From IMG/VR virus record IMGVR_UViG_3300034082_000592, positions 1 to 22,284 of that record: a DNA stretch of 22,284 nt. One strand, given 5' to 3'. Position numbers and translations under genes: made by a program. This stretch comes from a virus. Shown here one piece after another: positions 5,152 to 22,284 of the stretch (its first letter is position 1; each line of letters opens with the position of its first letter). Under the pieces are notes generated by a model that worked only from the letters and a program-made list of their open reading frames with translations, did no database searches and was not told the DNA's origin.

Positions 5152-8100
5152 TTATTTCCCTGCTTTAGTACCTTTCTTAGCTTTTGCAGCTTTTTGCGCT
5201 TGCTCGAATAAACTAGAGTAATTAAATTTCTCTGCGTAATCAGGAGAAGTTAATTTAAGTAAAGCTTCCTGTAAAGATATTCCTTGCTCATTCTTAGCAA
5301 TGTCTGCTAACTGACCTAAACCTTCTTGTAAAGATTTAGCTTTAGCAGCTTTAGCAGCATCGTTGTAAGTTTGTAATTTCATCTCAAGATCAAGATTACT
5401 TTTATCAATATCTCTGTTTGCTAAATCTGCTTTATATGCAGCATCTTTATCAAACATTTCTTTTTTAGTATATAAAGCATTAGTAGCTTCTTGTTTACTT
5501 GCTGCAACATTTGCCATGTTAGTTAAATAAGCTCCGCTACCTGGCGATGCATTTTTAATTGCTTGATTAGCTCCTGCGTATGCTCTACGAACCTCAGCTA
5601 ACTGTGGATCAATATTCATTGTATATGGATCAATATTAGCTTTTTGAGCGTAGTCTTCATAGTTTAATAAGTTAGGTTTTCCAAAGATACCTCTTCCTAT
5701 ATTATAAGCAGCAGGTAATGCCATCATAGCACCTTCTAAAGGAGTTTGTTTAATTTCTCCAACACCTGGTTTAGCGCCTTGCTGAGCACTCATAGCTTGC
5801 ATAGGATTTACTCTTTGTTGATAAGCTGCGTCAGTTTCTCCTGGAAGTCTATCCATACTTGATCCAGCAGCATCTTCACTTAAAGCAGCGTCGTATTCTT
5901 GTTGCGCTAAAAATGCGGCTTTTCTATTAGCAGGGGACTCTTCTATAAATTTTTGTTCAATAGCTAATTTAGCAGCTTCTACATCTTCAGGACTAAATTG
6001 TCCTTTTTCATCAGCAGATGCTCCAAAAGCTTCTAATACTAATGGATCATTAATAGCTTGTTCTAAAGTATAGTTAGCAACTATTCCATTAAGATTAAAT
6101 GCTAAAGTAGGATTAATAGGATCTTCTCCTTCCATACCTCCACCCATTGCTAAAAAGTTTGCATATGGATTATCATTAGTAGGCATATTAAGTGGGCCTC
6201 CGTATTGAGTAATGTGATCAAGAGGTTGGTACATTGAGTAATTCATACGACCTCCATTAGCAAATGCATTAGCCGCAAAATTAGTTGCTTGGTTAATAAA
6301 AGGATTTTGTTTTGCAGTCATTAATTTATTAACTGCTTCGTTACCTTTAAATACTCCTGCTGCTTGTGTTGCTCCTTGAGGGCCCATAAAGCCTGCAATT
6401 GTTGATGCACCTTGGCCAATACCTCCAGCAATTTTATCAAACTGTTCTCCTGTACCTTTAATATTAGTAACACCAGAAGTTAATCCTTCTATACCTTCGT
6501 TAACTGCAGAAGATGTAGCTGCACCACCTGTAAGACCTGCACCTAATACTGCACCTCCTACATTACCAAAACCACGAATCATTTTGTCTTTCTCAACTTC
6601 TGATTCAGATCTTCCTCCCATACCTGCTAATTTATCAAAACCTTTATCGGTAAGAGTATCAGTAAGTCCGAAAGTAAGTGTGTCAAGTAATCCTTCTCCT
6701 ACACCGTAAGCACCTGCACCAATACCGCGCATTACATTACCTCCTACAGCATACATATGTCCTCCTGCATCGTACATATAACCTCCGTTATTGTACATCT
6801 TACCTCCGCAATTAAATAAAGAGCCTCCGTAAGACATAGGCATTTGACCCATTTGTTGCATTTGTGCCATCATCGCAGGATCAATTTCTTGTTGAGGCAT
6901 TCCAGCTGGCGGATTCATTTGCTCCTGCATCATACCTTGTTGCATTGCATTAGGATCCATCATAGGAGCTTGACCCATTTGTGGTTGAGCCATTTGTTGT
7001 TCTTGTCCAGGTACAGGCATATTTTGTGCTAACTCTGGATACTTAGAAGCAAACTCTGCGATGTCTTTATCTTTCTGCATCTCTTTTTGTTTTTCTTGAG
7101 CTTGCATTAGACTTTCTAAGTCACGTTGAATAGCTACTTGTTCAATAGTATCATTATCTCTACGTGAATTAGGACGATTAACTTTCTTAGAAACATCAGC
7201 AAATGTTTTGCCTACGTCACCTTTAGATAAACCAAACAAAGTTGCAGTCTCTTTATCAATTTTAATTTGATCAGAAAAGATGTAGTCGGCAGTGTTTAAT
7301 TTAGTCTCACCTTCCTCTACTAAATTCATTTTACCATCAGGCGCCATTCCTTGTGGAATACCTCCTAAAGGACTTTCTTCGTGAGTACCTCCTTCATTAA
7401 ACTCTGTCAACTGTCCTCCATCAGCAAAGCTGTTAGATCGAATCTTAGCTTGTACTTGTGGGGGTAAAGATCGGAAACCTTTATTATTAAAGCTTCCTCC
7501 GTTTGCGAAATTAATGTGGACTTGTCCACCTTTAGAATAGTTGTTCATTTCTTCAGTATTATTTTCAAATTCACCTATAGAAGGGTCGTAAGTCATTGGT
7601 GACATTCCAGGAGTAGGTCCTGCTGGTGGTAGATAAATATCATTAGCATCTGGCTGCCATTGTTTGTGTATAGGACTTGCATTTACTGGTTGACGCTCTC
7701 CCCATGCAGCACTATTACCCTCTTCATTAGGGATATATTCATGCTCTTCTGTTTCTTCAAAGTCTCCTCCTTCTCTAGGTTCTCTGTCAAGTGGGGGAAG
7801 ATTTAATTTTCCAATATCAATTCCTCGCATTTTTTGTTGGAGATCCTTTAAAGGTACTCTAACACCTGCTTCTACACTTGCAGAAGGTCTAAATGTCATC
7901 GTATCAGTATTGACAGGGTTTATTTGTGTAGAGGTATTATTAGCCCAAGATTGTGTCCCTGATGATTCATTTGCGGATTTACCTTCTCCTGCTGCTCCTT
8001 GAAATTGAGCTTTTCCGTAAAGACTTAAAGGAGTTTTTTTTAAAAACTTTGGCTTCCATTCTCCTTCAGCTTGTACTCCGTAAATAAATCCTGTATTATT

Positions 8101-9948
8101 TTTATTACCAAAACCTACTCCTCCATAAGGAGTAATACTACCTGCTGCTGTTCCTGGGCGTAAAGCATCATTACGTCTTCTAGGATTTGAACCAAATTTT
8201 AAACCTCCTATAGCACCTACTCCTAATCCAGTTTTATTATTGTAATCTGCTGCTAATTCTACATAACCTTTGCCCTTATTAGAATTAGTTATGCCATCGT
8301 ATTTTGCATGAAATCCTAGAGCTAATGGATTATCCGATAATCCAATGGCTGTAGGTACTACATTATTTTCAGGATCTATTGTAAAATTTGAAGCTAAATC
8401 AGAACCTTGTTCAAAATTTCCTATTTGCTGATTTCCATAAGGAAGTCCTACATCTCCTCCAATAGTCCATCTAGATTTTTTAGGACCGAAAGATTTTTCA
8501 AATCCTAAATTAGCAGTAGGCATTAAGTCGCCTGTTATAGTATTAGTACGGAAAGCATTAGAGTACAAACTAGCTCCTCTTAACATTTTATCTGGCGGCC
8601 ATCCTCCCATTGATCCTCCTACTGCAAATGATTCTGTTCCTTCCTCTTCTTGAGGAGGATATTGTATTATCTCATTTCCTCCTTGTGTAGGTGGAATGAA
8701 AATATCATTAGCATCGGGTTGCCATCTTTTATGAATAGGGCTAGCGTTTACTTCACCACGTTTACCCCATGCTGCGCTATTACCTTCCTCATTTGGTATA
8801 TAAGGTTGTTGTTCTAATGGATTATTTTCTTCATTTTCTTCAGCCTGCTCAATTAAATCAGACATATTATTTCTGCTAAATTTTGGAAGATCAATTTCAT
8901 CCATTTTTTGCAAGGGCATTCTGTACCCTCCCTCAATAGAAAAATTAGGTCTCCACTTTATTCCAGGATTAGATGTACTACCAGTAGATACATTACTTTG
9001 AGTGCCGTCTGGATTTAGATTATTACCTTGATCAGGGGCTCCTATTGGAGATGCAAAATTAGCAGATAAATACCCATTGCCAGGTATTCCTAATTTATCT
9101 AAAAATCTAGGACGATATTCAGCGTCAGCTTTTAAACCCCAACCAAAACCACTTCCTTTAGTACTATTAAAAGTACCTCCTGTATAAGGTTCTAGCATTA
9201 ATGAAGCATTATGTATTCCTCCTTTAACCTGTCCTTGACGATAATTTCCTTTTTGTATAGGAAATACACTACCTACTTTAGCTCCAAAACCTATACCTGT
9301 AGAAGGTGCGTATTCTGCCAATGCTTCTAATCTTGGCATAGCGCTAGGAAAAATACCTGCAGGTCCGTCTCCTCCTTTAACAGCTTTACCTTGCCATCCT
9401 ATATTTCCTCCAAACATTATGTTAGGTCCTTCGGGATTTCCAGCAGCATTTAGTTTACCAAAATTTAAATGATCTAATTGAGAAGTTGGACTTAAAAAAG
9501 TATTACTAGGAGTATGTGGATCATACTGTTGTCCTACATATAATCCTCCAAAACCTCCTACAGGTTTTGCATATTGTCCTGCTCCTGTTGCTGTACTAAA
9601 TCCTGCACGATATCCTGGAATTCTATTACCTACTAATGAATTAGTATAATAAGGGCTAGCATATAGATTTGCTGTAGGATTTGTTCTTTCTATCCATTTT
9701 TTAAAAGGGTGTCCTGGTCCTCCTGAAGCAGCTTCCATTTCTCCGCCTTCAGCGTAAGTTTGTATATTAGAAGCTTTAAAGGTACTCATCTGGCCGCCGT
9801 TAGCCATTTCATTATTAATTTTTTTCTCTTGTGCTAACATTTCTTTACTAGGTTTCTTTCCAGAACCTGCGTTAGCACGAATATTATCCCATAATCCTCT
9901 TTGACTATATGATCCGTCAGCACGTTTAATTAAATCTTTTTTAGACAT
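5152..9948 (-). CDS. Giant virion cargo protein, 1598 aa, with duplicated beta-barrel-like domain and Gly-Gly motifs
   Basis: ATG start, TAA stop; 51 bases separate it from the 928-aa gene. Layout by residue: 1-95 basic, with MANGGQM and YAEGGEM motifs; 96-420 first copy and 460-775 second copy of a large repeat. Each copy is a Gly-rich region with alternating hydrophobic residues like an outer-membrane beta-barrel, followed by a near-identical 38-residue linker. Residues 800-895 hold more GG motifs and a block (GGTHEESPLGGI, then NLVEEGET, then DYIFSD) that I remember from many Bacteroidota phage virion proteins. Residues 930-975 are charged helix, 976-1040 a Met/Gln/Pro-rich linker, 1039-1073 five tandem heptads, 1070-1200 Gly/Ala-rich and possibly membrane-active, and 1430-1598 a helical C-terminus. 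No catalytic motif is seen. Position after the muzzle and 928-aa genes suggests an ejected protein; the envelope-spanning role is inference. Confidence 0.92.
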   Translation of the reverse strand: MSKKDLIKRADGSYSQRGLWDNIRANAGSGKKPSKEMLAQEKKINNEMANGGQMSTFKASNIQTYAEGGEMEAASGGPGHPFKKWIERTNPTANLYASPYYTNSLVGNRIPGYRAGFSTATGAGQYAKPVGGFGGLYVGQQYDPHTPSNTFLSPTSQLDHLNFGKLNAAGNPEGPNIMFGGNIGWQGKAVKGGDGPAGIFPSAMPRLEALAEYAPSTGIGFGAKVGSVFPIQKGNYRQGQVKGGIHNASLMLEPYTGGTFNSTKGSGFGWGLKADAEYRPRFLDKLGIPGNGYLSANFASPIGAPDQGNNLNPDGTQSNVSTGSTSNPGIKWRPNFSIEGGYRMPLQKMDEIDLPKFSRNNMSDLIEQAEENEENNPLEQQPYIPNEEGNSAAWGKRGEVNASPIHKRWQPDANDIFIPPTQGGNEIIQYPPQEEEGTESFAVGGSMGGWPPDKMLRGASLYSNAFRTNTITGDLMPTANLGFEKSFGPKKSRWTIGGDVGLPYGNQQIGNFEQGSDLASNFTIDPENNVVPTAIGLSDNPLALGFHAKYDGITNSNKGKGYVELAADYNNKTGLGVGAIGGLKFGSNPRRRNDALRPGTAAGSITPYGGVGFGNKNNTGFIYGVQAEGEWKPKFLKKTPLSLYGKAQFQGAAGEGKSANESSGTQSWANNTSTQINPVNTDTMTFRPSASVEAGVRVPLKDLQQKMRGIDIGKLNLPPLDREPREGGDFEETEEHEYIPNEEGNSAAWGERQPVNASPIHKQWQPDANDIYLPPAGPTPGMSPMTYDPSIGEFENNTEEMNNYSKGGQVHINFANGGSFNNKGFRSLPPQVQAKIRSNSFADGGQLTEFNEGGTHEESPLGGIPQGMAPDGKMNLVEEGETKLNTADYIFSDQIKIDKETATLFGLSKGDVGKTFADVSKKVNRPNSRRDNDTIEQVAIQRDLESLMQAQEKQKEMQKDKDIAEFASKYPELAQNMPVPGQEQQMAQPQMGQAPMMDPNAMQQGMMQEQMNPPAGMPQQEIDPAMMAQMQQMGQMPMSYGGSLFNCGGKMYNNGGYMYDAGGHMYAVGGNVMRGIGAGAYGVGEGLLDTLTFGLTDTLTDKGFDKLAGMGGRSESEVEKDKMIRGFGNVGGAVLGAGLTGGAATSSAVNEGIEGLTSGVTNIKGTGEQFDKIAGGIGQGASTIAGFMGPQGATQAAGVFKGNEAVNKLMTAKQNPFINQATNFAANAFANGGRMNYSMYQPLDHITQYGGPLNMPTNDNPYANFLAMGGGMEGEDPINPTLAFNLNGIVANYTLEQAINDPLVLEAFGASADEKGQFSPEDVEAAKLAIEQKFIEESPANRKAAFLAQQEYDAALSEDAAGSSMDRLPGETDAAYQQRVNPMQAMSAQQGAKPGVGEIKQTPLEGAMMALPAAYNIGRGIFGKPNLLNYEDYAQKANIDPYTMNIDPQLAEVRRAYAGANQAIKNASPGSGAYLTNMANVAASKQEATNALYTKKEMFDKDAAYKADLANRDIDKSNLDLEMKLQTYNDAAKAAKAKSLQEGLGQLADIAKNEQGISLQEALLKLTSPDYAEKFNYSSLFEQAQKAAKAKKGTKAGK
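6730..6834 (-). repeat. Five tandem heptads, consensus x-x-G-G-x-[ML]-[YF]
   Basis: Residues 1039-1073 of the 1598-aa protein read SYGGSLF, NCGGKMY, NNGGYMY, DAGGHMY, AVGGNVM: five units of exactly seven residues (21 bases each) with an invariant Gly-Gly at positions 3 and 4. This is the densest cluster of the GG motif that is scattered through this protein and the neighbouring 928-aa protein. The DNA units differ at third bases, so this is not a fresh slippage product. Confidence 0.85.
7624..8571 (-). repeat. Second copy (B) of duplicated barrel-like domain plus linker
   Basis: Residues 460-775 of the 1598-aa protein. It begins SLYSNAFRTNTITGDLMP, matching the start of copy A. It contains the hairpin-like YVELAADYNNKTGLGVGA and GFIYGVQAEGEWKPKF, matching YRPRF in A, and the closing strand RPSASVEAGVRVPL. 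The linker YIPNEEGNSAAWG...WQPDANDIYLPP at residues 738-775 is identical to the copy A linker at 32 of 38 positions by hand count, offset by 355 residues. Confidence 0.8.
8689..9663 (-). repeat. First copy (A) of duplicated barrel-like domain plus linker
   Basis: Residues 96-420 of the 1598-aa protein. The region begins YASPYYTNSLVGNRIPG. It contains strand-like segments with every second residue hydrophobic (GFGWGLKADAEY, residues 267-278), then YRPRFLDKLGI, then the closing strand RPNFSIEGGYRMPL. It ends with the linker YIPNEEGNSAAWG...WQPDANDIFIPP at residues 383-420. The pattern matches copy B in order and spacing. DNA identity is clearly lower than protein identity in the linker, with many third-base changes, so the duplication is old and the linker is under protein-level constraint. 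Confidence 0.8.
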
Positions 9949-9999: not shown

Positions 10000-12786
10000 T
10001 TAAACAAAATTACCTCCGTAAGTAGGAAACATATTCATATTGTTTGACTTAGGAGTATTATCAGAAGCAATATAGTTAAATAAGTTTTTCATTGAACTAT
10101 TGTCTTTAGATACTTTAAATAGATTATATAAAGCACCATTAAAATTAGGGCTGTTTCTATCTAACTCTCCGCTCTTTTCTCCTTCTAGTCTCCAATTTTC
10201 AATATCTTCATCAGTGATAGTTTGATTAGGTTGCAAATTTTTCTGTTGACGTATCTCAAATAACATTGATTGAATATTATCTTCTTGAGGACTAGTTAAA
10301 TAATCATAATAATCTCCAGCAGCGTCTCGCTCTTCGGAATCTTTTATGTCTTTTCCTATTTCATCAAAACTTTTAATACTAGGCCCAATAATCTTTTGCT
10401 CTGCTGAATATACCTCATCAGCATAAGGAGCCATAATTCTAGTACGCCCCTCATGCATCATAGTAGCATTAAGTTCTCTAGGGTTATTCATTATTGATTC
10501 ACTTAATTGTATTTTTTCTGGCAATCCTTTTTTATTATATACTATAGCTCCTTGAGCACTTCCGCCATCTAAAGTCGGTACTATTTCATAAGGTACTTTA
10601 TTTGCGTTTATTTCGTTTAGCAATGTAGACTCTGGATTATAAGCAGGAAGTATAGACTTCATTGTTTTTTCATATTGCTTATTGCCTATTTCATCAAATG
10701 GTAAAGTACGTTTAGAATACCAATTAGTGTAAAAATCTCTAATATCTTGTTCTCCTGGTATTACTGGTCCTTCTGGTACAGGCGTTGTAGGAACTAGATC
10801 ACTAGCAGTTTCTAATACACCTCCGTTTGGATACTGGTAATTAAGTTGTCCACCAAATGCGTAAGGTTTATCAATAATATTACCATCTAAATCATAATAC
10901 ACTTTAGGTTCTAAACTTGCTTTAGATACTCTAGTAGGTAATGGTTTACTTAAAGCTCTTGCCATAATATCTTCTTGAGTATTATGACTAGCAGGAATTT
11001 CATAAGGACGTTCAGCAATCTTATTATTTGATTTAAAACTTTCCATAATCATATCATCTTTACCTTGGTACAACCAAGGTTTTCTTATCATTACTTCAGA
11101 TTGTGGTAATAAGTAAGGAACTTGGTCTTCAGGTAATCCCTCTGCACTTTTAAAATTAGGAATATCTACTTCTTTAATTTTTACAGGCAACGGTGTGCTT
11201 AATAACGTAGTATTATTTATTTGCATTAAACCTGTTCTTGGATTTATTTGTGGGATCTCAGGATTTGATAAACCATTAAAAAATCCTGTTTCTATATTAT
11301 TATTCATTTTTACTGGAACTTCTTGATAACCATTTAACCAATTAGGTTTATTTTGAAAAACCTTTACTTCATCTGCAGGAAATGAAGTCATGTATGCTCC
11401 TGTTTCATCTATTGGAAACATAGTTGAGCCTTTTCCATGTCTTCCTAAATTAGAAGCTTTCATGCTCCTATTTGTTGATATTATAAAGGGAGTTTTATCT
11501 TGCTGCATTGTTTGATCAATATATGCTTGTCTGGGATTTCCTTTACCAAATGACGGGTAAGGCGTTGTCCTTTTTCCTAAATTTGTACTAACTCCTCCAA
11601 GATCTCCTGATCTAACTAAACCAGAATTTTGTAAATCAGCAATAGCATCGTCTCCTACTACTCTATTATATGTATTTAACTTAGTTGCCCAAGGATTTAA
11701 TTTATAAGTATTTGATAGTAAACCTTCTTCGGTTCCAAGTAATTTACCAAATTCATTAACTGTTGCTTTAGCGCCTTTATATAAAGGGGATACAACTCCA
11801 GCAGTTCCTACATCGAAAGCACCTGTTAAAGTATTTTCTAAAGCATCTGCGTATTCTCCTTGCTGTATTTGTTCAGGTACTTTTGATAATTTTTTCCCTC
11901 CTTGTACAATACTATATGCTCCTAATGCATTACCTACAGTAGCCCCTGGTACCGCAGACATACCTGGTATCGATGTTCCTAGTGCTTCTGTAATATATGG
12001 CATTGCTTTTGCGCCTAACATTCCTGCACCTTTAATTGCTGCTGGAAGTATACTAGGAGCTAATGCACCAGCTTGCCATGCATAATCCATCATATCAACA
12101 GGTTGTTCATGTTGAGGTAATTGGTCTTTAGTAGCAGCGGCATAATCTTGTTCCATGTTTTGAGCAAACTGTTGGCCAGCAATAGCATCTTGTACAGGTT
12201 GTCTTTCTGCTTCTGTTCTTCCTGCTACACTTTGTATCATTGGTGACTTACCATAAGAAGGCGTAACATTATCATATTTACTTGCAGTAGGATTTGCCAT
12301 GGTTACTACTGCTCCTTTATTTAGTGCAGCAGTACGTTGCCCACTTGGATCTTCTACAGGTACGTATTGACCGCCTGTTCCTTTATTACTAATAAGCCAA
12401 TTGCCTTCACTATCTTTTTGATAATAAGAACCTGGACGTTTAGCATAAGTATATATACTACCTCCATCAGGATACTGATTCATTGCTCCTCCCATAGCAT
12501 AAGGAGCAGGGTATTGTCCCATGCTTGATGCATAGACACTATTTTTTAATCCTCTACCTCCTTGTTGAAAGCTATCTTCTGGTAAAGAGTAATCAGGTTT
12601 CATTTGTCCTCCATTGCCGTAGTACCTTCCTAATGCTGAAGCATAAACACTTGGTAATAAGTCTCCGTGAATATTTCTATCGTTTAGGGGCCCACCATCT
12701 GCAAAAGGTAAAGCAGTTGTATCTCTAAAAATCTTTGTACCTAAAGATTTATAATAAGTGTCAATAATACTAGGAGTCTTTTTCAT
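10000..12786 (-). CDS. Large virion cargo protein, 928 aa, with Gly-Gly motifs and degenerate HExxH region
   Basis: The ATG overlaps the stop of the muzzle gene by one base (TAATG). Residues 1-110 carry five GG motifs (FADGGPL, YGNGGQM, FQQGGRG, YAMGGAM, YPDGGSI) and a local repeat (SVYASALG at 46, SVYASSMG at 83). Residues 236-300 are hydrophobic and Gly/Ala-rich and may insert into a membrane. Residues 371-490 form a compact-looking domain with NRVVG, TPFIISTNRSM and PADEVKVF; the spacing of R375, S437/T438 and E473 recalls ADP-ribosyltransferases, but this is weak. After two more GG motifs (YAFGGQL, YPNGGVL, near 642-657), residues 725-870 resemble a zincin-like domain, with MMHEGRTR at 776-783 where a protease would have HExxH. 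The protein ends PTYGGNFV. It is probably packed in the virion and ejected, as a companion of the 1598-aa protein with which it shares the motif. Confidence 0.9.
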   Translation of the reverse strand: MKKTPSIIDTYYKSLGTKIFRDTTALPFADGGPLNDRNIHGDLLPSVYASALGRYYGNGGQMKPDYSLPEDSFQQGGRGLKNSVYASSMGQYPAPYAMGGAMNQYPDGGSIYTYAKRPGSYYQKDSEGNWLISNKGTGGQYVPVEDPSGQRTAALNKGAVVTMANPTASKYDNVTPSYGKSPMIQSVAGRTEAERQPVQDAIAGQQFAQNMEQDYAAATKDQLPQHEQPVDMMDYAWQAGALAPSILPAAIKGAGMLGAKAMPYITEALGTSIPGMSAVPGATVGNALGAYSIVQGGKKLSKVPEQIQQGEYADALENTLTGAFDVGTAGVVSPLYKGAKATVNEFGKLLGTEEGLLSNTYKLNPWATKLNTYNRVVGDDAIADLQNSGLVRSGDLGGVSTNLGKRTTPYPSFGKGNPRQAYIDQTMQQDKTPFIISTNRSMKASNLGRHGKGSTMFPIDETGAYMTSFPADEVKVFQNKPNWLNGYQEVPVKMNNNIETGFFNGLSNPEIPQINPRTGLMQINNTTLLSTPLPVKIKEVDIPNFKSAEGLPEDQVPYLLPQSEVMIRKPWLYQGKDDMIMESFKSNNKIAERPYEIPASHNTQEDIMARALSKPLPTRVSKASLEPKVYYDLDGNIIDKPYAFGGQLNYQYPNGGVLETASDLVPTTPVPEGPVIPGEQDIRDFYTNWYSKRTLPFDEIGNKQYEKTMKSILPAYNPESTLLNEINANKVPYEIVPTLDGGSAQGAIVYNKKGLPEKIQLSESIMNNPRELNATMMHEGRTRIMAPYADEVYSAEQKIIGPSIKSFDEIGKDIKDSEERDAAGDYYDYLTSPQEDNIQSMLFEIRQQKNLQPNQTITDEDIENWRLEGEKSGELDRNSPNFNGALYNLFKVSKDNSSMKNLFNYIASDNTPKSNNMNMFPTYGGNFV
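12478..12651 (-). repeat. Local duplication SVYAS-x-x-G ... GG in the 928-aa protein
   Basis: Residues 46-63 (SVYASALGRYYGNGGQMK) and 83-103 (SVYASSMGQYPAPYAMGGAM and one more residue) share the same beginning and the same closing GG-x-Met, 37 residues apart. It looks like a small module duplicated together with its GG motif. Confidence 0.7.
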
Positions 12787-15700
12787 TAGAATACTTGATA
12801 ATCAAAGTAAGACATTAAACGATTCATGATTAACTCTTTGTTCTGAGAGTTATCAAAGTATAAAGTTACTACAAAATATGTACTACGTAAACGTCCTTGT
12901 TGGTTACCACTGTTTTGATCTCTTGGAATTTTAAGTCTCCACTTGTCAAATTTACGTTTAAATCTTGCAGGTGAAAACGGCACTACGTTTGTATCTTGAT
13001 ATTGAGTAGAAATTCTAAACGCAGTAATAGTTTGCCCTCTATCTATAATTTTATTGTTATCTCTTACAATAGAATTAAATTCCATTGTGCGTAGTATCTT
13101 GTTAACATCTGCTTGTGGATTAACTACTAATGTTAACTCACAAGGTTCTTGTATACCATAGAATACTCCCCAATCACCTATACCATTAGTATAAAGTTTG
13201 TCTTGTGATAATGCATGAGGGCTTAAAATAATATCTCCATTTTGAATCCAAATTGTAGGAGCCATTGAATACCTAGAAGAAAACTGTTGAGCTAATTCGT
13301 CAAATACTAATGTATCAGAATTATATACTTGTTTTGCTGTTGCAGGTAAACTATTTGCCAAAAGATCAATTACTGCTTGAGGTCTTGTACTACCAGAAGT
13401 AAACGTATTAGTTACGTAATAATAAATATTAGTATTTGAGTCGTATACAATTGTACCTACGGCATATAAAATGTTTGTAAGTAAAAGAGCAGAAGAAGCT
13501 TTACTTAAAAAAGTAAATAATACTTCGTCGTTTATAATATCTTTTCCAATGTGAACCCCTTTACCTAAAATAGGATTATCCCCTCCATTTGCTTTACGAG
13601 TAAATACATCATTAGGTAATGACTGTAAAAAGCTGTGCATTCCTTTAATCTCTGAGATAGCGCTATTTGCAGTTTGTCCTGATTGCGCTTGCATCATAAA
13701 TATTTTTCTATGGAAAGCATCAAAGAAATATATACCAGCTTCCGTAGTTTCTACTGCCCATTGATGAATAGCACCATGTACTTTAGAATAATAGATGTGC
13801 TTACCAAAGCCTAATCCTGTACCTAATTGTGTAGGCACTCCATCAGCAGTAGTAGTGACAGCTGCGCGATTGATAGCGTATGCCCCTACTCCTTTATCTT
13901 GAACAAAGTATACAGTATCTTTCCAGTTTATTACTTTATTAATAGGTCCATAATCATCTACGTCATAGTAGTTATTTAAACCAAACTTAGTCCAAGCATC
14001 TACTGTTTCTTCATTAATTTTTACATTAGATAAATAAGCTCTAATATCATTAGCTCCACTAGTTTGTATATTAGCAGGTTGTACATAAAAAGCTAAATCA
14101 TCATTTTGCCTAGAATAAATTAAATTATAGCTATACATATCTAATACTTTAGCATACGGAGCTTCAGCGTTATTAGTTTCTTGTCTAAAAGCTGGTATTA
14201 TTGTACTACCAAATTCATACTTAACTCCTGTACGAAGAGTAGCACCATTTGCTAAATCAAGATTTAATTCACTTTCTAGTGCAATAATTTCTGTGCGAGT
14301 ACTGTCTCTGCGATATTTATTATCTGAGTAAAATGCTGTATTAAATTCTACTAACCCAGATTGTACAATAAACATATTTACAAAAATATCTCCACCAAAT
14401 ACTTTAGGATTTGTATTTGCAGGATTTATAATAGGAGAAGCAGGAATAAATTGATTAGCCTCTAAACTATCTGTAGTATATCCTCCGTATACTTCTAATT
14501 TAGGTAGTATGCATTCAGTAATTGGAAAGTATCCATTATAACTTCCTGTAGGAGCAAAAGTAGTTCTATTTACAGGAAATACATTATTAGGTGCTTTAAA
14601 AAAATCATCAGTTGACCCTGTTATAGGAGCATTAGTAAAAAAGTCATTAGTAATTTTTTGTACTTTACCTATAACACTTGTTCCTGCTTTAAAAAATTCG
14701 GGAACTTCACTAGTTCCAGCACCTTGTTGAGGTCTATTTGGATTAACTTGCGGATCGCTTGCATCAAAATAATTATCCATGCACCAATAATTTCGCATGT
14801 AATACCCATCAAATAATCCAGTTATTTTTACCTCGTAATCACAATCGTCTTCCATTTTAAACTTAGCATTAAATTGCCAACGTTTAATATTTTCAATACT
14901 ATTAAAATTTACAGGATAAGTATCGTAATACTGATTTCTTATATCTTGTGATCGATTTCCTAAACCTTCTGCTTCAAAAGTTAAAGTAGGAGTTGCGTAT
15001 TGCAATCTATTTGTATAAGCTCCAGTAATTAATAAACAAGGATTGCTTCCTAAATTTAACATTAAATCGGCAACATTATTCTTATCAAAAGAAATTTCTG
15101 GAGAATAAAATCCTAAATAAGATCCTAATCTTAAATAATCTAAGTATTGCGGAACGTAACTAGTTGCAGAACTATTTTCTAAAGTACCAAATGATGCATT
15201 AGGTTCGGAAGCAGCAGGATAATAAGGATATAAATGTAATACATTACTGCTTCCATTTACTTGTAAATCAAATCCTCCTGAGCCTGTAAAATGTGGTGCG
15301 TCTACAGGATTATGATAAAATCCTCTCAATAATCCTTGAGAAAGTCTTCGTTTATCTACATTTTCTCTTTTTACTCTAACTATCTGGTAACCAGTAATAT
15401 TATTTAATAATCCTGGACAAGTGCTAAAATCTATATTAAATTCTATGCCCATAGAATATCCCATAGTGTGTTCACTAGCAGGTTTCTGTTTGCTAATAGG
15501 CCAAAATTTATATCCTGAATTATTAACTACAGAATCTATTTCTGAAATATCAGGAAATTTAATATCTCCTATATATTCTACAAATGTAGCTTCTCCTTTA
15601 ATAGTGTAAAATACAATACCAAAACGATAAGTCTCTCCTCTTTTGTAACCTCTTAATAATCCTGAAATAAACGGAGAGGCATTGTTAGAGAAAGTTGTAT

Positions 15701-17102
15701 TAGCATATGGTCCATATCCATCATTTAAATTATGAGGAGTTGCATCAGGAGAATCAGTTACAAAAACTGTTCCTACGGTATTTCCTATAAAAGGAGCAGT
15801 TTTATCTAAAGTAAATTCTTCTAAATGAAAATTATAAGTAATATTTGGACCTTGACCTCCTAAACGTAATCCATCACTTTGGTATCTGTACTGTGAATTA
15901 GTTTGCCAAGTTTGATTCCAATGTGCATCAGAATTATATTCTGTATTAAATGCATTTTTTAAATTATTAATGGCAGTGCCTGGAGTAAATGGAGGAATTG
16001 GTGATCCCCCATTAAATTTATATCTCCTAGTTTTTGCATCAAATGTTTGTCCAGCAGGAAGTAAATCCTTAAGACTTACTAATGATTCTTTAATATTAGC
16101 AATTAATAAAGAACTATCTTTTTGAGTTATAGTCTTAGGCGTCTTAAAAGCATAGTTTCTAGATAAAAAATCTAATAACTCTAAATCAAAAATACTATTT
16201 TCTCCTCCTGTATATGTAAAAGTAATACTTGTTTGACTAGCAATAACAATCTCTTCTATAGAAGTAACTTCTGTTGTTGCAGTATTAGAAGATTTATAAA
16301 TAGAAATAAACTCTACTTTATAAAAATTCAAATAGTTAGAAGTGTTTAAGGTAATAGTAAGAGATTTACCGCTATTAACTACAGTGCTATTTCCATTATA
16401 TGTATTAGAGTTTCCTGCAGATTCACTGTCAGAAACAACGTGTATTAAATTACTTGGAGGAGATATTAAAGTTTGTTTTCCATCAGCAGTAGTTAATCGA
16501 TAAGCAATTTGATAGACTCCAGTATTTAAACTACCTCCACCTGCTATAGTAGTAAATAAAGGCTGAGTAAATTTAACATCAGGAAAAATATCTATTAATC
16601 CCACAGGTAAAGTAGCTAAACTAGGATCTACTACATTAATAGATCTAAAAAAGTTATTATAATCTGTCCAATAAACTCTTTGAATACTTTCGGATTCAAA
16701 ACGACCTAATGCTTCAATTGGCCACTGTTTCTTAAAATTTAACGCTGCATTATAGTAGACTAAATTAAAAGTAGTAATAGCTTTTGTTGCGGGATTATAT
16801 TCTAAATTATATATCCAACCTTTAGTACCACTATCATCAGCAACAAACAAAATAATTTTTGTTCTAATTGTAGCATAACCTATAACAACAGGATTTAATG
16901 CTGTCCATGCTCCTGGAGGGGTACTTACTACAGGTAAAGTAACAGCTAAAACATTTCCTTTAATATTAGTAAAACCTCCTAATGAATCCCCCGTAGTTGT
17001 AGTAATTCTTACATCTAAAGCATCAATATAAAAAGTAGCTGCCAAACTATCGTAGGCAGTATCTTTATTCATTCCTTGGTAGGTATTTATATGTTGCTCC
17101 AT
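12786..17102 (-). CDS. Muzzle / tail tubular protein (P22 gp10-like), 1438 aa
   Basis: This is expected to form the distal tube of the short tail, where DNA and cargo leave the particle. The N-terminus (NTYQGMNKDTAYDSL, then FYIDALDVRITTTTGDSLGG, FTNIKGN) has the form I recognise at the start of P22 gp10-like tail proteins of crAss-like phages, with a variant of 'NVR...G...N..GN'. The body is rich in Thr, Asn, Ser and aromatics with little helix, fitting a beta-propeller and beta-sandwich protein. The conserved C-terminal region includes KWRLKIPRDQNSG, RLRSTYFVVTLYFDN and a terminal SYFDYQVF. Its size is in the range of crAss muzzle proteins. The gene lies 9 bases after the gp4-like gene and overlaps the 928-aa gene by one base. 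No enzymatic motif is visible. The assignment rests on the N-terminal pattern, size and gene order. Confidence 0.9.
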   Translation of the reverse strand: MEQHINTYQGMNKDTAYDSLAATFYIDALDVRITTTTGDSLGGFTNIKGNVLAVTLPVVSTPPGAWTALNPVVIGYATIRTKIILFVADDSGTKGWIYNLEYNPATKAITTFNLVYYNAALNFKKQWPIEALGRFESESIQRVYWTDYNNFFRSINVVDPSLATLPVGLIDIFPDVKFTQPLFTTIAGGGSLNTGVYQIAYRLTTADGKQTLISPPSNLIHVVSDSESAGNSNTYNGNSTVVNSGKSLTITLNTSNYLNFYKVEFISIYKSSNTATTEVTSIEEIVIASQTSITFTYTGGENSIFDLELLDFLSRNYAFKTPKTITQKDSSLLIANIKESLVSLKDLLPAGQTFDAKTRRYKFNGGSPIPPFTPGTAINNLKNAFNTEYNSDAHWNQTWQTNSQYRYQSDGLRLGGQGPNITYNFHLEEFTLDKTAPFIGNTVGTVFVTDSPDATPHNLNDGYGPYANTTFSNNASPFISGLLRGYKRGETYRFGIVFYTIKGEATFVEYIGDIKFPDISEIDSVVNNSGYKFWPISKQKPASEHTMGYSMGIEFNIDFSTCPGLLNNITGYQIVRVKRENVDKRRLSQGLLRGFYHNPVDAPHFTGSGGFDLQVNGSSNVLHLYPYYPAASEPNASFGTLENSSATSYVPQYLDYLRLGSYLGFYSPEISFDKNNVADLMLNLGSNPCLLITGAYTNRLQYATPTLTFEAEGLGNRSQDIRNQYYDTYPVNFNSIENIKRWQFNAKFKMEDDCDYEVKITGLFDGYYMRNYWCMDNYFDASDPQVNPNRPQQGAGTSEVPEFFKAGTSVIGKVQKITNDFFTNAPITGSTDDFFKAPNNVFPVNRTTFAPTGSYNGYFPITECILPKLEVYGGYTTDSLEANQFIPASPIINPANTNPKVFGGDIFVNMFIVQSGLVEFNTAFYSDNKYRRDSTRTEIIALESELNLDLANGATLRTGVKYEFGSTIIPAFRQETNNAEAPYAKVLDMYSYNLIYSRQNDDLAFYVQPANIQTSGANDIRAYLSNVKINEETVDAWTKFGLNNYYDVDDYGPINKVINWKDTVYFVQDKGVGAYAINRAAVTTTADGVPTQLGTGLGFGKHIYYSKVHGAIHQWAVETTEAGIYFFDAFHRKIFMMQAQSGQTANSAISEIKGMHSFLQSLPNDVFTRKANGGDNPILGKGVHIGKDIINDEVLFTFLSKASSALLLTNILYAVGTIVYDSNTNIYYYVTNTFTSGSTRPQAVIDLLANSLPATAKQVYNSDTLVFDELAQQFSSRYSMAPTIWIQNGDIILSPHALSQDKLYTNGIGDWGVFYGIQEPCELTLVVNPQADVNKILRTMEFNSIVRDNNKIIDRGQTITAFRISTQYQDTNVVPFSPARFKRKFDKWRLKIPRDQNSGNQQGRLRSTYFVVTLYFDNSQNKELIMNRLMSYFDYQVF

Positions 17103-19792: not shown

Positions 19793-20671
19793 TTAAATAG
19801 GGAATTTGATACTATCAATTGATTTTAACGTAAGGTCTCTATTATTAGATGTATCTCTACGTGTATTAATTATTAATATTCTACTTCCCACAGGTTTTGG
19901 TGGAGCTCCGCGTTCTACGTGCCATCCTTTAGATCCTTCTCCGAACTCTTCTTTGTAAGTACCTGTAATCATCATATGAATTTGTCTGTGTTTCTGAGAG
20001 TATCCTGTAGATGCATGTTGCTCAATTATATCACGAGCTATGTTAGTGCATTTGTTTTCATGGATATGTCCCATTGCAAATACATCAAAATCTTCAGCCA
20101 TTTCAAGAGCTCTTGTAAGGTTAATCTCTCCACGAGTTACTATTCCTCCACCTCCACTACCGTGGAAGTATTTAATTTTAGTAACTATATTAAATTTAGG
20201 TCTAGACTCTTGACGTACAATTAGCCATCCACCATATCCTCCTGTCTGAACGTTGCTCCCATTTTTGTAATTAAGTAGGTCCACAAATCGTTGTAAGATG
20301 TCAGTCTCCTGGCGTTTAATTACAGAAGTCTCATGATTGCCGTAACCAATCACAGTAATCAGATGCGCATACGGTGAAAAGAAATCTACCGCTGTTTCTA
20401 CAATAGAATCAAGGTACTTAATATTATTGTGCTCAGGTCGGATATCAGACTTAGTACCCCTTGGGTCCCATTTTCCTTGCATTAAACAAAACGTATCCCC
20501 ATTAAACATCATAGGAATAGAATTTTTTAAACAATAATTTAAATCTCTTTTTAGTAGATCCCAATCGCATTTCGGATTATCCCAGTGTATATCTGAGAAC
20601 ATTGCTATCTTAACTTTTGATCCGCTAATTTTTAATTCATGGATATTCTTTGAATGTCTGATTAATTCCAT
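19793..20671 (-). CDS. Calcineurin-like metallophosphoesterase, 292 aa
   Basis: This is a two-metal phosphoesterase; the substrate is unknown. All five family motifs are present in order: SDIHWD (D27, H29), FNGDTF (D59), GYGNHET (N112, H113), FHG (H170) and MGHIHE (H202, H204). The length is typical of a single catalytic domain with no signal peptide or membrane segment, so it should act in the cytoplasm. It sits between the cell-wall hydrolase (one-base TAATG overlap with the stop of that gene) and the two small genes, so it is co-transcribed with lysis genes. A nuclease or nucleotide phosphatase role is possible. A link to lysis timing is not supported by anything except position. Confidence 0.9.
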   Translation of the reverse strand: MELIRHSKNIHELKISGSKVKIAMFSDIHWDNPKCDWDLLKRDLNYCLKNSIPMMFNGDTFCLMQGKWDPRGTKSDIRPEHNNIKYLDSIVETAVDFFSPYAHLITVIGYGNHETSVIKRQETDILQRFVDLLNYKNGSNVQTGGYGGWLIVRQESRPKFNIVTKIKYFHGSGGGGIVTRGEINLTRALEMAEDFDVFAMGHIHENKCTNIARDIIEQHASTGYSQKHRQIHMMITGTYKEEFGEGSKGWHVERGAPPKPVGSRILIINTRRDTSNNRDLTLKSIDSIKFPI

Positions 20672-21189
20672 TATGCTTCGTTTTGGCTGATAGCACCTTT
20701 AGCACTTAAAATTACTTTACGAACATTTGCAGGTTGTGCAACTTTCCATTTAGTTCTCCTTGCTTGGTACAATCTTGATTTCACAATTCTACTTACACTC
20801 ATTGCATTTCCTTGATTTCCACCAAGCACATGATAACAATCTTTATCTTCGCCAACATATATTCCTACATGTCCTCCTCCGTCTCGTTTAAATGTTAAGA
20901 TATCTCCTAGCATTGGCTCACTTACTTTTGTTCCGTAATTGGCCCAGGATAATGCCCATAACGGCTTGTCTACTACTTCTACTCCTGCTTTATGGCAAGC
21001 ATAAGCAATTGCTAATCCGCACCACGGAATCTCATCTGCTGTATATACTTTCTGTAGTCCCACTTCTTTTGCCCATCCTAAGATTACTGGGTTATGTTGT
21101 TTACCTACTACTTCTTTGGTTCCTAATAGCTTCACTGCTTCAACAAGGAGTTTCGGAGAAGTTTCCGATTTTAAAAAGTCATAACTCAT
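20671..21189 (-). CDS. Cys/His endolysin (NlpC/P60- or CHAP-like, TIGR02594-type), 172 aa
   Basis: This is a probable peptidoglycan amidase or endopeptidase for host lysis. The sequence NPVILGWAKEVG, then TADEIPWCGLAIAYACHKAG gives the catalytic Cys (C57) in the typical 'D-x-x-PWC' setting. GDILTF and GGGHVGIYVGED supply the catalytic His (H107), and LGGNQGN provides the third polar residue (N125). This layout is that of the short TIGR02594 proteins common in phages. There is no signal peptide, so export depends on the holin gene located 3 bases upstream. No separate cell-wall binding domain is present; the last 25 residues are basic and may be a tail. The ATG start is clear. Confidence 0.9.
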   Translation of the reverse strand: MSYDFLKSETSPKLLVEAVKLLGTKEVVGKQHNPVILGWAKEVGLQKVYTADEIPWCGLAIAYACHKAGVEVVDKPLWALSWANYGTKVSEPMLGDILTFKRDGGGHVGIYVGEDKDCYHVLGGNQGNAMSVSRIVKSRLYQARRTKWKVAQPANVRKVILSAKGAISQNEA

Positions 21190-21192
21190 AAA

Positions 21193-21690
21193 TTAATTTT
21201 TTATGTTTTTGTATGTATCCGAGATTTTCTCGATAGTTCCTCTGATTTTTTTTACTATATCAAACACAGATTTAAGCATGTTATTACCTGTGATATCAAA
21301 CCAATTTTCGTTTATAGATGCTAATTCTATTAATGCAAATATGCAAAGCAATAAATTAGTATACACAGCTTGGGTAGGAAGAGTTACATTGTAACCTAAA
21401 AATTTTATTAGACCATTAGAGAATGGAGTAAAAGCATAGTAATCTAATGGAAATAAAGCTCCAGCAAAAATATAATATCCGCTAGCCTTAAATATATAAC
21501 CTCTTCTTAAAATTTTTGATTTAAATACATCTCTGTATTTTCTTTTTTCTGCGCATGCAATCTTTTTTAGAGAAATTAATTTGACTACTGTGTCAATTAA
21601 AATTACAAACATTAATAACAACGCACACATCTCAACTGGAGCAAATATTGCTCCTACTCCCATAATAAATATTGTAATTTTTTCTTTCAT
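21193..21690 (-). CDS. Holin (phage_holin_4-like), 165 aa
   Basis: This is a probable pore-forming holin that releases the endolysin. Hydrophobic segments are visible at about residues 5-37 (FIMGVGAIFAPVEMCALLLM, then FVILIDTVVKLI), 68-90 (GYYIFAGALFPLDYYAF) and 95-127 (GYNVTLPTQAVYTNLLLCIF, then ALIELASI). The pairing of 'LIDT' after the first segment, a charged 'KYRDVFKSK...RRG' block, and 'IELASINEN' before a C-terminal amphipathic helix fits the holin family found in Bacteroidota phages (pattern 'iE..Si.EN'). It lies 3 bases before the endolysin gene and 20 bases after the spanin gene, an orthodox lysis cassette. The length is within the family's usual range. Confidence 0.85.
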   Translation of the reverse strand: MKEKITIFIMGVGAIFAPVEMCALLLMFVILIDTVVKLISLKKIACAEKRKYRDVFKSKILRRGYIFKASGYYIFAGALFPLDYYAFTPFSNGLIKFLGYNVTLPTQAVYTNLLLCIFALIELASINENWFDITGNNMLKSVFDIVKKIRGTIEKISDTYKNIKN

Positions 21691-21710
21691 GATTTCTTAA
21701 TAAATTTTAT

Positions 21711-22163
21711 TTACAAGCGCATTAACTTAAAATATTTGGTGATTAATATATAGATTAAATATAGAATTCCAAAAATAAGTAAAAATGCTAGTGCATTATT
21801 AAGAAACTTTTTCCACCAGGGATAGTGTTCGTAGTATTTTACGGGGATTTTTTTAGTAATCACTTTAGTGATATACACAGGAGCGCATGCTCCTTGAATA
21901 TATACCTTTTTCTCTGTAGGTACATACCAAGCTTTTACAGTAACTCTATCTTTTGTTAGAGTTACTGTATCAACTAATTCTTTTAATGTTACTACTGTAT
22001 CAGTATGTACTTCTGGTACATACAAAGTAATAGTGTCGTGTATAACAACACTATCAATAGTAAGCAACTCAGGGTGCTTAGTAATTAAGCGGTTAAACCT
22101 CTTCGCTGGACTGCATGCTAGCAGCAACGATAGGATCAATAAACTCCACAGAATTTTTTTCAT
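21711..22163 (-). CDS. Unimolecular spanin (lipoprotein with C-terminal transmembrane segment), 150 aa
   Basis: This protein would disrupt the outer membrane in the last step of lysis. It has a lipoprotein signal peptide (MKKILWSLLILSLLLAC; lipobox LLAC, Cys17), a periplasmic part of about 100 residues with alternating hydrophobic residues (IDSVVIHDTITLYVPEVHTD, VDTVTLTKDRVTVKAWYVP), and a single transmembrane helix near residues 122-142 followed by the basic end KYFKLMRL. N-terminal lipid anchor plus C-terminal inner-membrane anchor is the defining layout of a u-spanin such as T1 gp11. The ATG at 22161-22163 is chosen over an upstream TTG (22181) because it gives the classic signal peptide. 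The first 71 bases overlap the 3' end of the upstream gene in another frame. It is followed by the holin gene. Confidence 0.83.
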   Translation of the reverse strand: MKKILWSLLILSLLLACSPAKRFNRLITKHPELLTIDSVVIHDTITLYVPEVHTDTVVTLKELVDTVTLTKDRVTVKAWYVPTEKKVYIQGACAPVYITKVITKKIPVKYYEHYPWWKKFLNNALAFLLIFGILYLIYILITKYFKLMRL

Positions 22164-22284
22164 TTCCTTGTTCTTGAGCAAGCCCGTTTAAGAAATTAAT
22201 TAAGGGAAGTCCTAATCTAGTGGGCATTTCGCTAATGTAAGCCTCTAAATTTTTAATGTGTTCTTCATTTAAAACAATCTGTCT
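22093..22284 (-). CDS. C-terminal 63 residues of a small conserved phage protein (5' end off the window)
   Basis: The frame is open from the window edge to a TAA at 22093-22095. The visible sequence (RQIVLNEEHIKNLEAYISEM, then PTRLGLPLINFLNGLAQEQ) resembles, as I remember, a short protein of Bacteroidota phages with the pattern 'i-l-x-EEHI-x-N-L-x-x-(F/Y)I-x-E-(M/L)P', encoded upstream of lysis or structural genes. Its function is unknown. The last 20 or so residues are encoded by the same DNA as the spanin signal peptide in another frame and look unconstrained (IVAASMQSSEEV), so the overlap may have arisen by the spanin start moving into this gene or this gene extending into the spanin. Confidence 0.72.
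   Translation of the reverse strand, partial: RQIVLNEEHIKNLEAYISEMPTRLGLPLINFLNGLAQEQGNEKNSVEFIDPIVAASMQSSEEV

Follow-up and report, generated by a model that had tools for sequence, protein, structure and literature searches.

Predicted outer-membrane-type beta-barrel domains in the cargo protein 1 of a crAss-like phage

The window analysed here (positions 1 to 22,284 of the IMG/VR virus record IMGVR_UViG_3300034082_000592, 22,284 nucleotides) encodes the cargo protein 1 of a crAss-like phage on its minus strand, in an open reading frame (ORF) of 1598 residues at 5152..9948. The assignment is based on the Pfam family PF25725 (crAss_CARG1), which matches residues 841-962 (7063..7428, minus strand) with an E of 7.1e-28 and 97.8 bits against a cut-off of 27, and which is the sole Pfam domain found in this protein. 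Ahead of CARG1, the protein carries two copies of a domain for which structure models make a ten-strand up-and-down beta-barrel of the outer-membrane type very probable. The domain could help to insert or anchor the ejected envelope-crossing apparatus in the outer membrane, a role to which we give slightly better than an even chance.

The repeat and its predicted fold

The repeat is real and beyond chance. In a BLASTP self-comparison, residues 93-420 align with 459-775 (342 columns, 35% identity, E 1e-40), and the domain bodies alone reach an alignment score of 216, against 500 shuffles that averaged 44 and peaked at 77. This bears out the two copies claimed in a preliminary description of the window, which had been made from the sequence alone and had placed them at 7624-9663, i.e. 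at residues 775-96 of the minus-strand ORF. Each repeat unit consists of a body of ~250 residues and a linker ending in VNASPIxKxWxxxAxDIxxP. Domain 1 (residues 93-346; 8911..9672, minus strand) was delimited by the copy alignment, and domain 2 (residues 460-697; 7858..8571, minus strand) by its AlphaFold2 model, in which the ten predicted strands are followed by a short helix at 700-707. The bodies have diverged to 28-33% identity between the copies. Linker 1 (residues 383-420; 8689..8802, minus strand), with the C-terminal end VNASPIHKRWQPDANDIFIPP, and linker 2 (residues 738-775; 7624..7737, minus strand) are far more alike: they differ at 6 positions, so that the earlier count of 32 identities in 38 residues at an offset of 355 is correct. 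At the DNA level the linkers are 78% identical over 103 bases, and the bodies yield scattered short matches only. The elements YRPRFL/WKPKFL and RP..S.E.G.R.PL, also pointed out before, are present in the copy alignment.

AlphaFold2 models were made for copy 2 and for the homologous domain of a relative (locus L020), both from one shared eight-row alignment. Ten long strands are predicted for copy 2 (predicted local distance difference test, pLDDT, 55.4; predicted template modelling score, pTM, 0.54) and ten strands for L020 (pLDDT 67.3, pTM 0.62). In both models the strands are 9-16 residues long and even in number, the domain is all-beta except for short helices, and the structural matches suggest an antiparallel order. 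Two of the alternating segments quoted in the preliminary description (562-569 and 621-631) lie within predicted strands of the copy-2 model, while the third (267-278) is the copy-1 counterpart of 621-631.

Membrane barrels lead the structural matches of both predicted folds. With Foldseek, the first five rows for copy 2 are OmpG and OmpC, and the seventh is a designed membrane barrel. The L020 model retrieves OmpC (E 1.2e-3), the designed barrel TMB10, OpcA and NspA, and 49 of the 50 matches listed are membrane barrels by title, the remaining one being an unnamed chain of a type 9 secretion complex. A second-look structure aligner, with rows ranked by Z, was also applied. For copy 2, the best 50 of 1000 realigned chains are all membrane barrels, headed by OmpG (Z 10.7). 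For L020, the designed ten-strand transmembrane barrel TMB10 comes first (Z 13.7, 2.6 Å over 138 of 142 residues), followed by OpcA (Z 11.1) and by OmpT and Pla (about Z 10); membrane barrels make up 45 of the 50 matches listed. OpcA, OmpT, Pla and TMB10, which the predicted L020 fold resembles, are all ten-stranded. With two models in agreement, the barrel fold appears well supported for a prediction of such depth.

Small membrane barrels show a polar face rich in Gly and a hydrophobic face rich in aromatic residues. In the modelled strands of copy 2 and L020, the hydrophobic face contains 2% and 0% DEKR, 42% and 48% VILMF, and 24% and 28% YWF, respectively. The polar face contains 26% and 21% DEKR and 24% and 21% Gly, with an NQSTH content of 27-36% in the two models. 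This face difference was matched by 0 of 2000 shuffles in each model (20 strands in total); the shuffles, like the models, had their face picked strand by strand. Alternation over the whole module exceeds the shuffled level in all 9 modules (z 2.1-4.9) and stays near it in three controls from the window (z -1.5 to 0.8). The barrel domain put forward in the preliminary description can be kept as a predicted ten-strand barrel of the outer-membrane type with a near-uncharged strand face; its insertion into a membrane is what we infer from that prediction.

Several observations weigh against an outer-membrane barrel. Model confidence is low to medium, and the eight-row alignment is shared by both models. 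No Foldseek match lies below E 0.001 for either model, and 37 of the 50 matches listed for copy 2 are antibody chains (probability 0.16 or less), the other 13 being membrane barrels. Five of the 50 aligner rows listed for L020 are soluble barrels (7sfp, 7sfn, 2fwv, 4tq2 and 5yvf; Z 9.3-10.9), and OpcA, its best membrane row apart from TMB10, ties with them. An alternation test on the best window of each protein fails to separate barrel domains from other proteins. No outer membrane protein (OMP) family matches above cut-off in Pfam, NCBIfam or PHROGs, and the PDB sequence matches of the profile are designed Pizza beta-propellers only (19 sequences, best E 5.9e-5, ~62 positions). No signal peptide was seen by eye before either copy (no predictor was run), and the L020 protein opens with the domain. 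Finally, a near relative (L004, discussed below) seems to manage without the domain, which is missing from its 32.6-kb record; its 949-residue protein has neither copy.

Without an OMP-family match above cut-off, without a signal peptide and encoded within a virion cargo protein, the domain is unlike OpcA, OmpT and Pla. A Sec signal peptide is not expected, however, if the phage delivers the protein from outside. The Pizza matches were put down to repeat or composition, as both models predict ten long strands. Alternation was rejected as a barrel detector: the top six of 229 ORFs (0.395-0.426) lie in muzzle-like genes, judged so from place and length, and the barrel modules score 0.34-0.37. 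Among the 40 ORFs listed, the barrel modules are distinct only by their Gly content (0.11-0.18 versus 0.02-0.10). Since the best-window measure is non-discriminating, alternation backs the models and proves nothing alone. A C-terminal beta-signal was likewise discarded as proof: EGGYRMPL and EAGVRVPL fit the usual pattern, yet this pattern occurs 11 times in cargo protein 1 and 10 times in the muzzle protein.

The soluble rows of L020 raise the question of whether the domains are soluble beta-barrels (calycin/lipocalin-like, in our labelling) or soluble beta domains of another kind, hydrophobic at the core and polar outside, acting in carbohydrate or lipid binding or as spacers. A soluble domain would pack more easily into the capsid, other cargo and muzzle-like proteins show strong alternation too, and the soluble rows are tied with most of the top membrane rows. 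We nevertheless hold this to be improbable: none of the 50 rows listed for copy 2 is soluble, the best match of L020, a designed transmembrane barrel, stands 2.8 Z units over the best soluble one, and the Gly and NQSTH contents of the polar face suit the interior of a small barrel over a soluble exterior, by the rule given above. The soluble adhesin that the preliminary description had offered as an equal alternative is less favoured, because the homologous C1 protein of phage ΦcrAss001 is described as lying inside the virion (PMC10172136).

A borrowing from a host porin, as the preliminary description had suggested, finds no support. The sole family hint is a sub-threshold match of the OprB porin family in L020 (E 0.0091, 15.9 bits against a cut-off of 22.9), which is the nearest OMP family found. 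Pattern scans of genome contigs, built from the barrel alignment (41 pattern matches) and from the CARG1 alignment (45 pattern matches), gave no relative; both scans need short exact peptides, so that distant porins could escape them. Neither copy matched anything at E 1 in a phage collection, PF13568 was found in none of four phage records, and in BFVD, whose first rows include phage proteins named outer-membrane proteins, nothing reached E 0.001. Weak matches to the NCBIfam entry CD3324 (E 0.11) and to a baseplate PHROG in L013 (E 0.063) were dismissed.

Cassette exchange among relatives

Viral contigs were scanned with three queries. The whole protein found three loci, two of the window's phage type and L004; its conserved part found 21 loci (three on contigs already found), and the CARG1 region found 53 (many on contigs already found). 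The census of copies that the preliminary description had proposed shows that two, one and zero copies all occur among the relatives. The domain is an exchangeable cassette, present in two copies, one or none, replaced by an unrelated substitute, or placed on the neighbouring gene. The L004 DNA is 84% identical to the window from within the cargo 1 gene on downstream, and its protein misses the stretch from the YAEGGEM motif (residues 65-71; 9736..9756, minus strand) to ~residue 785 of the window protein; this comparison sets the left border of the barrel cassette at the motif. L010, L017 and L022, which are near-identical in their cargo 1 protein, carry a single copy in the corresponding position, with 46-48% identity to copy 1. 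In L019, L020 and L041, the neighbouring cargo gene (1673 residues in L020), and not the CARG1 protein, begins with the domain; L043, cut by the contig end, is a fourth case.

A profile search of 21 whole records found the domain in 7, two of these being of the window's type, and an eight-row hidden Markov model, run on the ORFs of >100 residues of 72 loci, revealed no other kind of member up to E 1. The CARG1 proteins of seven crAss-like phages (ΦcrAss001, bajarodcaudo virus 1, phi14:2, Dulem virus 41, cr111_1, DAC15 and cr126_1), searched as a seven-sequence database with all HMMER filters off, hold no clear copy (8.2 bits or less). In that search cr126_1 (8.2 bits, E 5.3e-4) and bajarodcaudo virus 1 (6.1 bits, E 0.0023) lie above the inclusion line; with best single stretches at ~E 0.005, they were taken as noise.

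In a seven-row tree, copy 1 pairs with the L017 domain (support 100/100), apart from copy 2 and from the group of L019, L020, L041 and L043. The end branches of copy 2, L017 and copy 1 are long (the tool issued a warning), but the split is strongly supported. Since the copies are not sisters, the tandem duplication described earlier stands as anatomy and not as a recent event: either the duplication took place before the L017 type branched off, or copy 2 came from elsewhere. The close likeness of the linkers would then have to be explained by recent copying, gene conversion or strong constraint.

Cassette behaviour is seen between L011 and L017. Their DNA is 97.3% identical over 2195 bases before the module and 99.0% identical over 9368 bases after it, and bases 7764-8652 of L011 have no match in L017. 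The L011 module is similar in length, shows what look like beta hairpins on inspection, and is followed by the same linker motif. L012 and L070 have another module in common (34% identity), and L013 has a fourth. A profile comparison of the L011, L012 and L013 modules with the barrel family showed no remote homology (probabilities 2%, 0.1% and 11%). All three may be barrel-like, to judge from their sequences and whole-module alternation.

The slot ahead of CARG1 was surveyed across the 53 loci, which gave 51 CARG1 proteins after exclusion of L046 and L047, both of the window's own type. At least 100 residues precede CARG1 in 32 of the 51, which form 27 groups once near-duplicates are merged. 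In these 32 regions, Glucosaminidase occurs seven times at E 0.01, Glyco_hydro_19 twice, PG_binding_1 once and two domains of unknown function once each (weak); bajarodcaudo virus 1 has Phage_lysozyme2 in the slot. L070 shows the order barrel-like module, glucosaminidase (516-617), CARG1 (726-844) and Gly-rich hydrophobic stretch (from 1103), while L012 has the glucosaminidase placed first. The neighbouring cargo gene of the relatives contains further modules: Glucosaminidase in L019, L020 and L041; ADPrib_exo_Tox in L017 (4597-7524) and L011 (4765-7527), with E about 1e-6 and above cut-off; and ART-PolyVal in L041 (7692-12671; E 3.9e-12) and, slightly below cut-off, in L019 (3050-8101). These phages may thus inject ADP-ribosylating effectors, as their domain content suggests.

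The same survey bears on two further explanations. The module might be a passive, fast-evolving passenger, a beta-rich filler in a permissive N-terminal arm with no membrane role. Its absence from L004 and from all seven named phages examined would fit this, as would the rapid divergence of the barrels beside linkers that stay alike. We regard it as very unlikely, since the other occupants of the slot are domains, and since two members of ~31% identity are both predicted to be ten-stranded and two-faced, which points to selection on the fold (their models share one alignment and are not fully independent). Alternatively, the barrels could be delivered to the host outer membrane for a purpose other than entry, such as blocking or masking a receptor against superinfection or changing the envelope, the swapping reflecting a race with surface diversity. 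The exchange of unrelated modules between 97-99% identical flanks is typical of diversifying traits, and with ADP-ribosyltransferase modules in the adjacent gene of relatives the cargo set probably includes effectors. Wall hydrolases in the very same slot fit entry, however, and up to 12 copies per virion (the figure given for gp45 of ΦcrAss001, PMC10172136) would be few for masking a cell surface, so that a non-entry purpose seems rather doubtful.

The left borders of all four module differences inspected (window/L004 cargo 1, L011/L017 and two inserts in the L004 neighbouring gene) lie at a Gly-Gly motif. In the window's cargo protein 1, the motif [FYMW]-x(1,2)-GG-x-[LIMVFY] has 15 occurrences (shuffle mean 1.5, maximum 9 of 1000), three of them within the barrel-like domains; another occurrence, FAVGGSM (residues 441-447; 8608..8628, minus strand), was found by motif scan at the junction of linker 1 and domain 2. 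Six occurrences are found in the gene upstream of cargo 1 (shuffle mean 0.5, maximum 5), and none in the muzzle protein or in the two genes downstream. In 6 of 9 relatives' proteins the count lies above all 300 shuffles. The motif may act as a linker, as a seam that favours recombination or as a site of processing.

Proposed role and known systems

Insertion of the domain into the outer membrane during infection is, on balance, the reading we lean towards; that it would act there as an anchor rather than in another membrane role is somewhat less than an even call. In the proposed sequence of events, the N-terminal arm would be held unfolded or partly folded in the virion and would exit first via the tail, by analogy with what is thought for the N-terminal part of gp45. 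The barrels would then fold into the host outer membrane and could anchor or seal an envelope-crossing tube of up to about 12 copies of cargo protein 1. Host OMPs traverse the periplasm unfolded and fold in the membrane, and a barrel would therefore suit an unfolded ejection route. A ten-strand barrel alone is too narrow for the passage of double-stranded DNA, which is why the barrel is proposed as a collar or anchor and not as a DNA pore. In the relatives, the wall might be opened next by the slot modules (glucosaminidase, GH19, phage lysozyme).

The closest known counterpart is cargo protein C1 (gp45) of ΦcrAss001. It is found inside the virion with residues 425-552 bound to the portal and residues 214-245 in the tail barrel, in up to 12 copies per virion; its authors expect it to exit first and to help in channel formation, and propose partial unfolding in passage (PMC10172136). 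The window protein resembles gp45 in its CARG1 domain and in a gene placed after the muzzle gene and before cargo 2. The equivalent of its CARG1 region (841-962) is gp45 424-555, which spans the portal-bound part. The arm of gp45 is long, N-terminal and partly in the tail, and the barrels of the window protein likewise lie N-terminal of CARG1. The two proteins differ in that gp45 is described as having a predicted transmembrane helix in its arm (136-158, PMC10172136) and no barrel. Two barrel-like domains are found in the window protein, whose most hydrophobic stretch follows CARG1, and an additional gene separates muzzle from C1 in the window.

The proposed job, that of an ejected virion protein entering the host outer membrane, is shared with DEV gp73 and T7 gp14. 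DEV gp73 is an outer-membrane pore protein of a podophage ejectosome, made of alpha-helices in its cryo-EM structure and likened to T7 gp14 (PMC10925440). Unlike this alpha-helical insertion, the membrane module of the window protein is a predicted beta-barrel, and its stretch at 1123-1150 is weakly hydrophobic. Polyvalent proteins of phages and conjugative elements are large injected multidomain proteins that mix lysozymes with ADP-ribosyltransferases (PMC5512222). The relatives' cargo genes, with their hydrolase and ADP-ribosyltransferase modules, resemble them; the window's own cargo protein 1 shows CARG1 only. The words "barrel" and "porin" are absent from the main text of PMC5512222; a membrane barrel would add a further type of module. 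The beta-barrel named for SU10 is that of the capsid and not of an ejection protein (PMC9509320). A literature search found no beta-barrel in an ejected or crAss-like virion protein, subscription papers lying mostly outside its coverage.

Taken more broadly, and only tentatively, virions of some crAss-like phages may carry ready-made outer-membrane beta-barrel cassettes that are threaded unfolded and installed on entry, perhaps via the host barrel-assembly machinery; the module order in L070 would mirror the layers of the envelope. The outer-membrane crossing of short-tailed phages is known in detail for few systems, and a phage-borne beta-barrel would represent a second solution beside the helices of DEV gp73, one fitting unfolded passage via the tail channel. 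If true, the exchange of unrelated modules at a single site would identify the outer membrane as a front of the arms race after adsorption. The cassette pattern also offers a handle for finding more envelope-crossing modules.

Gene layout and neighbouring genes

The window shows the gene order muzzle, one extra gene and CARG1, with CARG1 downstream of the muzzle. The tail muzzle protein is encoded at 12786..17102 on the minus strand (PF25731, E 2.1e-143; PF25729, E 7.3e-11), and the extra cargo-like gene (928 residues; the gene with six Gly-Gly motifs mentioned above) at 10000..12786, also on the minus strand. In all seven named phages CARG1 directly follows the gene at the muzzle's place, and their regions lack the extra gene. 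The latter has no Pfam match above a cut-off. Its C-terminal part (~640-928) aligns poorly with the L004 counterpart and contains MMHEGRTR, which, in our estimate, resembles a zinc-metallopeptidase motif.

C-terminal of CARG1, a Gly-rich stretch (residues 1123-1150; 6499..6582, minus strand) was identified by hydropathy scan as the most hydrophobic of the protein. It is a weak candidate for an alpha-helical membrane segment (best 19-mer Kyte-Doolittle mean 1.03). The most hydrophobic 19-mer lies after CARG1 in the window and the six relatives examined, and before it in gp45. In L060, this hydrophobic stretch matches Gly-zipper_Omp.

The protein opens with a mobile motif (RADGSYS.RGLWDNIRA..., residues 1-50; 9799..9948, minus strand), recognized from the sequence and the relatives. 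Cargo 1 begins with it in the window, L004, L011 and L017; L019, L020 and L041 have it towards the end of the neighbouring cargo gene, and elsewhere it lies within other genes. A small module, KGKFTA...VQEFA or RGKFTxYCGGxVTxxCIxRG, is present in the same N-terminal arm of several crAss-like phages (L004 ~6300-6480; DAC15, L105 2966-5464) and is tandem in DAC15. Elsewhere in the window, the minus strand at 19793-22181 holds what we take by eye to be a cluster of genes for a metallophosphoesterase-like protein, a putative endolysin, a putative holin and a small lipoprotein, perhaps a spanin.

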